The translations under genes were made by a program, and so were the position numbers. This document shows positions 9,535 through 13,350 of a stretch of DNA of 34,465 nt, one piece after another (position 1 is the first letter of the stretch; each line of letters starts with the position of its first letter). The notes below the pieces were generated by a model. The model was given only the letters and a program-made list of their open reading frames with translations, ran no database searches and was not told the origin of the DNA. Source of the stretch: an uncultured Clostridia bacterium (GTDB taxonomy: Bacteria > Bacillota > Clostridia > Christensenellales > UBA3700); assembly GCA_944380395.1 (NCBI GenBank), contig CALWHM010000019.1, positions 1-34,465 on the forward strand, read 5' to 3'.

Positions 9535-9610
9535 GGGGATATGGCTCAGCTGGTAGAGCGATGCGTTCGCAACGCATAGGCCACGGGTTCGAGTCCCGTT
9601 ATCTCCACCA
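9535..9610 (+). tRNA. tRNA-Ala (anticodon CGC)
   Basis: A 76-base cloverleaf with encoded CCA. The acceptor stem GGGGATA/TATCTCC contains the G3-U70 pair that marks alanine tRNAs. The anticodon stem ATGCG/CGCAT encloses the loop TTCGCAA, giving anticodon CGC (codon GCG, frequent in the genes here). The T arm is CGGGTTCGAGTCCCG. It has its own promoter and a strong terminator. Confidence 0.97.
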
Positions 9611-9614
9611 AACG

Positions 9615-9664
9615 AAACCTAAAACGAACTCCATTTTGTGAGAATCGTTTTAGGTTTTTTTTAT
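9615..9664 (+). terminator. Terminator of tRNA-Ala
   Basis: A 13-bp perfect stem AAACCTAAAACGA / TCGTTTTAGGTTT (9615-9627 with 9645-9657), followed by a long T run, starting 5 bases after the CCA end. Confidence 0.92.
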
Positions 9665-9812
9665 TAAAAAAGCTACTGCCTAACAGTAGCTTAAATCATT
9701 CGCAGAAGGAGGCGACACGCGGTGCCACTCGGAGTCCTAACTTGCTGTATAAAAGCTTCCATACAACATCACCTCCTTACACACCTAACATATTGGCACC
9801 TAATGTTTCGGT
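9661..9812 (-). ncRNA. Compact T-box-like / attenuator-like small RNA
   Basis: A complete transcription unit of about 150 bases: consensus promoter, RNA and terminator. From the predicted +1 (9812) the RNA opens with a hairpin ACACC...GGTGT enclosing AACAT/ATGTT. Next come a perfect Shine-Dalgarno AAGGAGGTG (9770-9778), a 23-codon ORF, and the motif GAG-TGGCACC-GCG-TGT-CGC-CTC (9709-9730). This matches the T-box antiterminator: two helices (GAG/CTC, GCG/CGC) around a TGGNACC bulge that pairs with the tRNA CCA end. CGCCTCCTT (9706-9714) can instead pair over 9 positions with the Shine-Dalgarno. A perfect 8-bp terminator stem AGCTACTG/CAGTAGCT follows (9671-9691). A canonical T-box Stem I with a specifier loop is not evident, and no protein gene follows, so it may be a remnant or an orphan regulator. 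Confidence 0.6.
9691..9762 (-). CDS. 23-residue leader-type ORF inside the small RNA
   Basis: An ATG at 9762 preceded by AAGGAGGTG with 7-base spacing, among the strongest ribosome sites in the window. The peptide begins MEAFIQQVRTPSG and ends LLLRMI, with its TAA at the base of the terminator stem. The T-box-like motif lies within the ORF, so ribosome passage would disrupt both the antiterminator fold and the SD/anti-SD pairing. It could be a regulatory leader peptide. Equally, it could be a by-product of the RNA structure. Confidence 0.4.
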   Translation of the reverse strand: MEAFIQQVRTPSGTACRLLLRMI

Positions 9813-9818
9813 GTTCAT

Positions 9819-9847
9819 AGTATATTCAAAATTTCTTTAATTGTCAA
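9819..9847 (-). promoter_or_regulatory. Consensus promoter of the small RNA
   Basis: On the minus strand: TTGACA, 17 bases, TATACT. The start is predicted at about 9812, exactly at the first base of the 5' hairpin. Confidence 0.82.
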
Positions 9848-9875
9848 GGTAAACGGCGGTTTATGCCGCGAAAAA

Positions 9876-9989
9876 AACGGTTTAGGAATAAATGCGGAAA
9901 TTGCTCAAAAAGATAGTTGGACAATTAAAGATATTACTGATAGAACTGAAAGATTAGTAAACGAATTACTTGATAAATACAAATTATAA
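9876..9989 (+). pseudogene. 3' fragment of a DUF262/DUF1524 (GmrSD-like) gene
   Basis: An open frame ending at the TAA at 9987-9989 encodes NAEIAQKDSWTIKDITDRTE and then RLVNELLDKYKL. This resembles the C-terminal end of GmrSD-type or DUF262-DUF1524 proteins, in which a Trp precedes the pattern xxIxxRTxxL near the terminus. These are modification-dependent restriction enzymes and relatives, common in defence islands. Nothing upstream continues the gene. The composition is much more AT-rich than the flanking operons. It is best read as a decayed scrap left after a tRNA-associated island was lost. Confidence 0.5.
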
Positions 9990-10032
9990 ATAATATTCGT
10001 TTTACGTTACGATTTGTCCACCAAAAACAAAG

Positions 10033-10064
10033 AAAACCGAACTTTTTGGTTCGGTTTTTTCTTG
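10033..10064. terminator. Bidirectional terminator downstream of fucO
   Basis: Stem AAAACCGAAC / GTTCGGTTTT (10033-10042 with 10049-10058) and a T run on the plus strand. The minus-strand continuation is also T-rich. It closes the minus-strand rhamnose operon. Confidence 0.85.
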
Positions 10065-11275: not shown

Positions 11276-12115
11276 TTATTTCAAATTCAAAAAGTCTTTG
11301 CGGTAGTTCTTTACTCCGAACAGCTGCAAAAGTTTGAGCATATCCTCATCCTTTATCGTGTTCTTGCGCGGCAGATGCGCGGTGAGCATATATATCTGCG
11401 CCGCTTTTTCCACCGTTTCTATAAGTCCGAAAGTTTCATCAAGCGTTCTGCCCGCTCCGTATATGCCGTGCATAGCCCACACCACAAGACGGAACTGCTC
11501 CATTTTCTTTGCGGTGGCGGCGCCTATCTCACTCGTGCCGCACAGCATCCACGGCAGCACGCCCACGCCCTCCGGAAAGACGACTATGCACTCCGTGCAC
11601 ATCTCCCAAAGCGTATGGGTGAACTCCTTTTCATCCAAAGAGTGCACAAAGTTCATTGCAAGCGTGTGCGTGGGGTGAGAGTGCATTACCACGCGGTTTT
11701 CGGGATCCACTTTCAAGCGGGCGATATGGCTCATCATATGGGCGGGAAATTCGCTGGTGGGTCTGCCGCCGTCCTCAAAGCCCCAAAGCAGCTGCACGCT
11801 TTTTCCGCTCTTGCCTATTTTCACTATGCCTAAATTGACGGCAGGGTCTTTTTCCACGTTCTTGAAGTACTTGCCCGTACCCGTGACCAAAAATATTCTG
11901 CCCTCCAAAGGCGAAAGATCCGCATCCACGCTGTTCACGCCCATAACGGGTATTTCACGCAGCACCTTATCTGTATCCAGATACTCCGCCACTTCGCTTT
12001 CTTCAAGCATATAACTTATATTTCCGCCGTTGCGTTCGTCCCAGCCCAACCTGTACATATTGGAAGCGGTAAGGCACATCTCGCGCATAAATTTCGCATT
12101 CAGAATATCCTTCAT
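11276..12115 (-). CDS. rhaD: L-rhamnulose-1-phosphate aldolase
   Basis: A class II zinc aldolase that splits L-rhamnulose-1-phosphate into DHAP and L-lactaldehyde. The 279 residues are normal for RhaD. Conserved blocks are GWDERNGGNIS (24-34), FLVTGTGKYFKNV (75-87), the Glu122 region PTSEFPAH, the zinc ligands His145 and His147 in MHSHPTH, and His216 in WAMHGIYGAG, followed by LDETFG. Its ATG overlaps the rhaA stop by four bases (ATGA), so expression is translationally coupled to the 3' end of rhaA. The premature stop in rhaA could therefore reduce rhaD translation. Confidence 0.96.
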   Translation of the reverse strand: MKDILNAKFMREMCLTASNMYRLGWDERNGGNISYMLEESEVAEYLDTDKVLREIPVMGVNSVDADLSPLEGRIFLVTGTGKYFKNVEKDPAVNLGIVKIGKSGKSVQLLWGFEDGGRPTSEFPAHMMSHIARLKVDPENRVVMHSHPTHTLAMNFVHSLDEKEFTHTLWEMCTECIVVFPEGVGVLPWMLCGTSEIGAATAKKMEQFRLVVWAMHGIYGAGRTLDETFGLIETVEKAAQIYMLTAHLPRKNTIKDEDMLKLLQLFGVKNYRKDFLNLK

Positions 12116-13350
12116 CTTTTGCCAAGCTCCTCTATCTCGTATTTGCGTATTTGCGGATAATATTCCCGCTCATTGCCCTGCCTTTTCAAATACTCCTCCC
12201 ACACGGCGGCAAACGGCAGATCCTTTATCCGCTCCTGCTCCGCCATTAAAAGGGTAAAGTTGCCCTCGTCCTGCAACTTGGCAAGTTTTTCGTGCGGAGT
12301 AAGCAGCGCTTGCAGCAACGCTTTCTGCACGCTGCGCTGACCCGTGACCCACGCGGACAGCCTGTTTATGCTCGCGTCAAAGTAATCCAAACCTATCATC
12401 ACCTTATCCAAGGCGTTGCAGCGCACTATTTCCGCGGCGATGTCCTTTATCTCGTCGTTGAAGAGCACAACGTGGTCGGAATCCCACCTGACGCCGCGCG
12501 TGACGTGCAGAGCGACTTTATCGTAAAACGCCAAAAGCGCGGGTATCTTGTCCGAAACATATTACAGCGGATGATAATGCCCGTTGTCCAAAAGACAGCA
12601 TATGCCGTTTTTAGCCGCATAGTTTTGATAAAATTCGTTGGAGCCTACCGTATAACTTTCCACGCCTATGCCGAACACCTTGCTCTCCACAGCCACTTCC
12701 ACCTTACTTCTATCGTACCCGCAGGAGAGAATTTTATCAAGACTGTCTTTTAATCTCAGGCGCGGCGTGAGCCTGTCCGCGGGCACGTCTTTAAGCCCGT
12801 CCGGTATCCAAATATTCACAAGAGTGCGCGTTTTGAATTCGTCCGCGAAATACTCGGCTATTTTCAAGCAGGCTATGCAGTGCTCCACCCAAAACGCCCT
12901 CACCTTTTCGTCCGGAGAGGACAAAGTCAAGCCGCCCTCCGCCATACGGTGCGAAAACATAGTGGGGTTAAAGTCTATGCCGTTCAGCCCCAGCTGCTTG
13001 GCAAATTCCACCCAAGGCGCAAAATGTTCGGGGCGGTAGGCGTTCCTGTCAACTTTTTCTCCGTTCAAAACGGCGTAACTCGCGTGCAAGTTCAGCCTCA
13101 ATTTGCCGGGCATAAGGGAAAACGCTTTTGCTATATCCCTTTTAAGCTCCTCAAAGTTTCTTGCCCTGCCGGGATAATTTCCCGTGGTCTGAATGCCGCC
13201 CGAAAGACTGCCGCCGCCGTCAAGTCCGATAACGTCGTCGCCCTGCCAGCAATGCACGGATATGGGCACCTCAGCCAGCTTTTTCATAGCGCGTTCCGTA
13301 TCCATACCCTCTTTAGCAAACCTTTCTTTTGCCAAATCGTATGCCGTCAT
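12112..13350 (-). pseudogene. rhaA: L-rhamnose isomerase interrupted by an in-frame TAA
   Basis: RhaA converts L-rhamnose to L-rhamnulose. The frame is continuous over 413 codons, close to the usual 418 residues, except for a TAA at 12562-12564 (codon 263). The N-terminal half (MTAYDLAKERFAKEGMDTER, HCWQGDDV, ESYTVGSNEFY, LDNGHYHP) and the C-terminal half (SDKIPALLAFYDKVALHVTR, RWDSDHVV, GLDYFDASINR) are both well conserved. The stop falls at the HPTE glutamate, so a single GAA-to-TAA change explains it. The truncated product would lack the metal-binding His/Asp residues of the second half (HVTRG, WDSDH, DYFD) and should be inactive. Its start overlaps rhaB by four bases. Alternatives are a sequencing error or a strain polymorphism. 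Confidence 0.85.

Follow-up and report, generated by a model that had tools for sequence, protein, structure and literature searches.

What does a compact, apparently self-contained transcript with a T-box-like motif do in the genome of an uncultured Clostridia bacterium? The initial annotation of this locus left three options, a minimal tRNA-sensing RNA, a regulatory peptide gene or a remnant. The DNA that we analyzed, here called the window, is a stretch of 34,465 nt of contig CALWHM010000019.1 (assembly GCA_944380395.1). On its minus strand, positions 9847-9661 hold a unit composed of a promoter, a 5' hairpin, a Shine-Dalgarno sequence (SD), an ORF, an anti-SD and a terminator.

Layout of the unit in the window

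The features of the unit and its surroundings are the following.

9819..9847, minus strand: sigma-70-type promoter TTGACA-17-TATACT, −35 at 9847-9842 and −10 at 9824-9819, 11/12 consensus matches
9781..9814, minus strand: hairpin H1 at the transcript start, loop GGTGCCA at 9800-9794, based on folding and covariation
9770..9778, minus strand: SD AAGGAGGTG, predicted to be closed by the anti-SD at 9714-9706
9691..9762, minus strand: 23-codon ORF MEAFIQQVRTPSGTACRLLLRMI, ATG at 9762 and TAA at 9693-9691
9744..9767, minus strand: hairpin H2 in its short form, TGTAT..ATACA around GAAGCTTTT, from the predicted fold
9715..9733, minus strand: H3 region with loop TGGCACC (the T-box bulge of the initial annotation), stem weak here with 3/4 aligned pairs
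9706..9714, minus strand: anti-SD CGCCTCCTT, 8/8 aligned pairs with the SD, mean predicted probability 0.99
9661..9692, minus strand: intrinsic terminator, stem 9692-9670 and T-run
9535..9610, plus strand: tRNA-Ala(CGC), 3' end facing the unit, probable attachment site
9597..9630, plus strand: probable att repeat copy 1 (tRNA 3' end), 34 nt, 71% to copy 2, spacing 413
10010..10043, plus strand: probable att repeat copy 2, 34 nt, 71% to copy 1
9879..9989, plus strand: 36-codon fragment with a weak likeness to the GmrSD_C end (15.8 bits against a curated cut-off of 23, E=0.013)

The earlier feature list was right, since every element in it (promoter, 5' hairpin, SD, 23-codon ORF, GAG-TGGCACC-GCG at 9730-9718, SD pairing and terminator) is present on the minus strand. 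The description as a self-contained transcript also holds, the unit having its own promoter and terminator. Between 9500 and 9950 there are two promoter-like sites, that of the unit (11/12) and one on the plus strand (9/12), and the terminator of the unit is the sole one detected. Two features were absent from the earlier description: the H1 loop is exactly complementary to TGGCACC at 9727-9721, and the tRNA-Ala(CGC) gene converges on the unit at 93 nt from the match of the covariance model described below. The window transcript folds with −48.4 kcal/mol (z-score −2.32; 3/200 shuffles equal or better). This z-score and an architecture that recurs at 16 loci outside the window, spread over 15 other genomes or records (17 loci in all), are the evidence that the arrangement goes beyond chance.

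Relatives and conserved RNA structure

Searching 60 related genomes at the DNA level gave matches in three, namely the window's own, G031 (locus L008, 83% identity over 88 nt to the window unit) and G026, whose match (L009) was dropped as a chance SD-like match. When 296 genomes of the order were searched by pattern, matches came from the own genome and G139 (L011); pattern matches L009, L010, L016-L025 and L143-L145 were dropped as chance. The scan of named genomes gave at least 117 stretches, mostly of one Streptomyces gene, of which eight were read and all were screened for the H1-loop motif. Among the matches listed, the true members were L092, from an uncultured Clostridia MAG, and L058, from Candidatus Stercoripulliclostridium merdipullorum, whose element equals that of L011; the other stretches listed were dropped as chance. 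The sampling of named genomes is accordingly incomplete.

Covariance model R1, built from L008, L011 and L092 only with the window left out, recovers the window at 78.8 bits (E=1.8e-18). It matched 3/47 genomes of the family and, at E<=0.05, 14/396 genomes of the order; 12 were kept, one with two copies, after rejection of L158 and L159, which have no AAGGAGGTG and no H3 motif. Model R2 was built from six relatives with a longer ORF, the H3 stem of R1 being replaced by a CCCG/CGGG stem. It matched 4/41, 4/161 and 2/40 genomes in three families, adding three new loci, and across the class 1/291 genomes, which was the window's own; among the 21 genomes listed, 14 belong to the order. Built from long-ORF members only, R2 recovers the window at 44 bits together with the other five short forms, and all 17 loci match it at E<=2.8e-7, although only six of them built the model and eleven, including the six short forms, did not.

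The distribution is sporadic, with members found only within one clostridial order. The own genome has one full copy, its five further matches covering just 16-27 nt, and two near-identical copies of the window unit (L150 and L160) lie in one other genome. With the queries tried, phage, plasmid and viral-contig collections gave no true member. Neither the RNA nor the peptide matched a family in Rfam, Pfam or NCBIfam, the Rfam search of the window and 11 relatives including the abiF motif RF03085; the literature was compared short of a full review.

Computation shows that the loci form one homologous family with covarying H1, H2 and H3 and conserved SD:anti-SD and loop complementarity. In alignment A5 (17 rows, 30 pairs), which was fitted using the R2 structure and is biased in its favor, 94.3% of the cells are standard pairs as compared with 85.4% in 500 shuffles, which do not preserve relatedness. 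Changes on both sides affect 12 pairs and 42 cells, versus 6.0 and 12.1 in the shuffles, and 0/500 shuffles reach any of five measures. As a control, sliding the partner by 1-3 columns gave 37-51% pairing. Across the 17 members, two-sided changes occur in all six pairs of H1 and in three pairs each of H2 and H3. The arms of H3 vary together (CCCG/CGGG, CCCA/TGGG, CTCG/CGAG and, by eye, CCTG/CAGG in L008), with 4/4 aligned pairs in 11 members, 3/4 in five including the window, and a gap in L157.

The loops of H1 and H3 can form 6/6 pairs in 14/17 members and 5/6 in three, which suggests a kissing contact. In A5 this loop-loop helix is 97.9% paired with no two-sided change; L157, gapped at this place, has GGCGCC facing GCGCC, by eye a compensated variant. 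The SD:anti-SD helix, 95.6% paired in A5, has no two-sided change either. In register it has 8/8 pairs in 11/17 members and 7/8 in six, so that all 17 are covered. In 13/17 members, nested folding predicts pairing between the SD and the 3' end at P>=0.9, the values for the others being 0.69 (L008), 0.35 (L173), 0.00 (L155) and 0.00 (L160). For the window, the lock in the proposed SD/anti-SD switch is thus supported by both its aligned pairs (8/8) and its predicted probability (0.99). We take the SD to be an extended match to the 16S rRNA tail and the anti-SD to resemble that tail.

A short CTCC occurs before or in the 5' arm of H3 in many members. In the predicted fold of L155 it pairs with the SD, a pairing that would exclude H3 and could possibly act as a transient second lock.

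The conserved structure bears directly on the T-box reading. The letters of the window allow a UGGCACC bulge with GAG/CTC and GCG/CGC helices on either side, tRNA genes are nearby, and the UGGNACC motif with short flanking complement is a likeness to T-box riboswitches (RF00230). However, the antiterminator helices flanking the UGGN bulge can be drawn in the window letters only. When they were mapped from the window onto A5 for pair counting, 72.9% of the cells were paired over the 17 sequences as compared with 72.8% in shuffles, no covariation was found, and two key pairs were unpaired in 9/16 and 11/16 sequences. A different hairpin through the same letters, H3, does covary, and UGGCACC is its loop in the relatives. 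The Rfam T-box model gave no match on 9600-9900 at E up to 10, none at the gathering threshold in the window or in 11 relatives, and none in L155 at E up to 5. Excerpts of PMC7778990 define the T-box by a Stem I with a specifier; none was seen by eye or as a covariance match, H1 alone standing upstream of the SD. The unit also lacks terminator competition and, in the window, a regulated downstream gene, as the convergent tRNA gene follows it. The T-box antiterminator identity was rejected on account of the Rfam results, the helices without covariation and the place of the motif in the H3 loop, and a minimal T-box or other tRNA sensor seems to us extremely improbable. A UGGNACC hairpin loop can mimic a T-box.

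Reading frame and genomic sites

Eleven members, the long forms, have an ATG at the same position after the SD and a conserved peptide start: MKALLKALM, MKALFKALM, MKAIFKALM, MQAFFEALM, MESFFETLM, METFCKVLM and, with an insert, MQAFAEKLTQALM. Codons 2-9 of ten of these were used for a coding test, L148 being omitted for its insert. The pairwise differences by codon position were 126/27/146, and the differing codon pairs comprised 80 synonymous and 129 nonsynonymous ones. The mean BLOSUM62 score of differing codons was 1.86 in frame versus 0.27 and −1.20 in the other frames. Shuffling letters within columns as a coding control was not significant (323/1000), and overlap of H2 with the conserved codons may add to the frame signal. 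An early reading of the family as a noncoding RNA with a non-conserved ORF was revised because the longer relatives show this conserved frame.

Conservation over the 11 long members is confined to the first nine codons. Five of them stop after 19 or 23 codons and have similar ends, two stop after nine, and four have no stop within 40 codons. The six short forms are the window, L150, L160, L008, L011 and L092. The first three keep the ATG with a tail unlike that of the long members, the window ORF resembling the conserved peptide only at its start (MEAF), and the other three have ATC (L008), ATT (L011) or ATA (L092) at the start-codon position. An ORF is thus present in the 11 long members and in 3/6 short forms. 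The initial annotation had named broken SD, ORF and stems in other copies as speaking against its reading; SD and stems are kept, and the ORF is lost in L008, L011 and L092. Its alternative of a regulatory peptide gene gains support from the relatives, 11 of which encode the conserved-start peptide. Six peptides had no match to Pfam and NCBIfam at E<=1. The hydrophobic moment was reached by <5% of shuffles for three of seven peptides and not for four, and because of this mixed outcome we do not call the peptide amphipathic.

A promoter-like site upstream of H1 occurs in 12/17 members, and a terminator-like stem with a T-run follows the unit in 13/17. Antisense promoter-like sites are weak (9/12 matches) and occur in 8/17; none is conserved among the 17, the sites lying at differing places except in three near-identical copies.

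Computation further shows that the ends of tRNA-inserted elements recur at the unit. In 7/17 loci the 3' end of a convergent tRNA follows it at a distance of about 80-130 nt, a count for which just 14 nt of downstream sequence exist in L177. The facing tRNAs are Ala (window), Ser (L152, L153 and L008), Val (L160) and Arg (L092), and the unit of L011 is faced by a 21-nt fragment that matches the end of the neighbouring tRNA-Lys exactly. In the window, positions 9597-10043 are probably the scar of an element integrated at tRNA-Ala(CGC), with the unit inside, and the GmrSD_C-like fragment is likely a remnant of that element. The remnant option of the initial annotation is thereby supported, as the window copy probably lies in a scar and its ORF has diverged. 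At L152 (L162 7043-8911), 17 nt are repeated exactly at a distance of 1,868 nt from the tRNA-Ser end. Within the 1.87-kb stretch bounded in this way are the unit, a regulator-like ORF and a radical SAM gene, with no integrase seen; the stretch may be a tRNA-site element of a non-autonomous kind. No such long repeat was found at the other five tRNA loci within the stretch examined. The four genus mates whose sequence after the same tRNA-Ala(CGC) could be read (L185, L188, L189 and L190) differ there from the window and each have a different sequence, so that this site is by these flanks an insertion hotspot.

Genes near the various loci include a large serine recombinase, a G2P-like Rep and, about 9 kb off, a phage integrase, as well as M78 peptidase, AbiH, AAA_21, TIR-methyltransferase, Ku and GmrSD_C proteins. 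Within 6 kb no family recurs beside most loci, whereas a few do so at two or three.

Some minor observations concern the same sites. Repeated tRNA ends are seen in some of the four genus mates. Elsewhere in the own genome (L192, G000:C28), another tRNA is followed by a hairpin, AACGAAACCTAAAACGAACT.., that resembles the hairpin separating tRNA-Ala from the unit in the window, and no unit follows there. In the window itself, a rhamnose isomerase-like frame with one in-frame stop was recognized by eye at 12112-13350 (minus strand).

Interpretation of the unit

The explanation that we favor, giving it about an even chance, is that the unit is a short-form copy, probably partly decayed, of a mobile-element mini-gene family whose transcript is a self-locked mRNA similar to those of hok and aapA. 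The transcript, of roughly 150-190 nt, would fold with H1 ahead of the SD and the downstream anti-SD paired with the SD. Through their complementary loops, H1 and H3 can tie the 5' part of the RNA to the 3' part. Translation would stay blocked by the lock until the SD is opened by trimming of the 3' end, by melting, or by a partner or competitor. The opened mRNA would then yield a small peptide (MKALLKALM...) that putatively harms or arrests the cell or stabilizes the element. The timing of the lock and the action of the peptide on the cell we infer by analogy. In the lineage of the window, the peptide would have been largely lost and the RNA architecture mostly kept. Several results count against this explanation: two-sided changes are lacking in both the loop-loop and the SD:anti-SD helix, a conserved antisense promoter is missing, the peptide end is variable, three short forms have no standard start, and the column shuffle gave 323/1000. 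The lock, moreover, is not predicted in L160 and L155 and is weak in L173 and L008, and A5 was fitted to the model.

The hok/sok system is a mini-mRNA on mobile DNA. According to excerpts of PMC6733600, a distant anti-SD closes the SD in hok and aapA mRNAs. The unit resembles hok/sok in this closure by a downstream anti-SD, and aapA/IsoA of Helicobacter in being a small-ORF mRNA with a distant 3' anti-SD that closes the SD by 5'-3' pairing (same excerpts). AapA3, however, is 30 residues long and has IsoA3, encoded on the opposite strand, as its antisense RNA, whereas the unit encodes 9-23 residues (or has no stop within 40 codons), has a putative loop-loop contact and shows no evident antisense RNA. 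To our knowledge, there is no sequence relation between the unit and aapA/IsoA. An evident antisense partner likewise sets hok/sok apart, and the peptide of the unit is unrelated to it as far as seen and has no Pfam match. Two features of type I toxin-antitoxin systems were found, predicted structural SD sequestration (7/8 or 8/8 pairs in 17/17 members, P>=0.9 in 13/17) and a small ORF under its own promoter (promoter-like site in 12/17). Membership is not claimed, since no antisense RNA is evident and the toxicity is putative. As to the adjacent protein toxin gene typical of type III or abiF systems, no family was shared by most loci within 6 kb, and RF03085 had no match. As excerpted from PMC12373285, RCd22, the abiF RNA of C. 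difficile, is similar in being an RNA of about 100 nt with its own promoter and terminator in prophage DNA; unlike the unit, it lies upstream of abiF and has RF03085 motifs, neither of which was seen at the unit loci.

Other explanations differ in where they place the function. The window copy may be a dead relic that has no present role there, a serious if somewhat unlikely possibility to which the probable att-flanked scar with a protein fragment, the weak H3 stem (3/4 pairs) and the ORF tail unlike that of relatives all point; its promoter, H1, SD:anti-SD, loop complement and terminator are nevertheless intact, and near-identical copies occur twice in another genome (L150 and L160). We consider unlikely a minigene-type trap, in which a strong SD would load ribosomes on a very short or non-stop ORF and peptidyl-tRNA drop-off or stalling, not the peptide, would burden the cell. 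Lambda bar minigenes are carried on integrating DNA and consist of a very short ORF preceded by a strong SD; bar lies near the phage attachment site. The conservation of the first nine codons only, the ORFs that end after 9 codons in two members and lack a stop within 40 codons in four, and the SD as a presumed extended match to the 16S tail fit such a trap, but 5/11 long members are properly stopped after 19 or 23 codons with similar ends, a length of 19-23 codons that distinguishes several members from bar. We also know of no lock of this elaborate kind in bar. Toxic accumulation of peptidyl-tRNA is described in excerpts of PMC8012679, where lambda bar papers are cited.

That the family is a structured noncoding RNA, such as an antitoxin or effector RNA, with an incidental or accessory ORF would agree with the three members without a standard start, in which the hairpins persist with altered stems alongside the loop complement and SD:anti-SD. 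We judge this quite unlikely in view of the frame-specific conservation in 11 members, the lack of a protein family recurring beside most loci and the lack of any Rfam match, including the abiF motif RF03085. The unit precedes a Ku gene in L154 and a SecA-like ORF (by eye) in L176, both in the same direction, as a leader or attenuator of a downstream gene would; yet a convergent tRNA end follows in 7/17 loci, a terminator-like site in 13/17, and the neighbours differ from locus to locus, which makes this role very improbable.

The self-locked mini-gene explanation can also be taken further, to a stand-alone class of self-timed mini-mRNAs that carry their own copy of the 16S tail as anti-SD, sense ribosome availability or host damage and release the peptide without an antisense partner. 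With an internal 16S-tail copy, opening would depend on competition between this copy and free 30S subunits, and the released peptide of about nine conserved residues would trap ribosomes or be toxic. We put this forward as a speculative and rather unlikely extension. The family itself combines an RNA structure well supported by covariation, including a 5'-3' lock, with a conserved micro-peptide, and it is found in uncultured Clostridia, often at mobile-element attachment ends. Should the peptide prove toxic or ribosome-trapping, the unit would be a very small stabilizing or defence module, and the members without a start codon would separate the roles of the RNA from those of the peptide.
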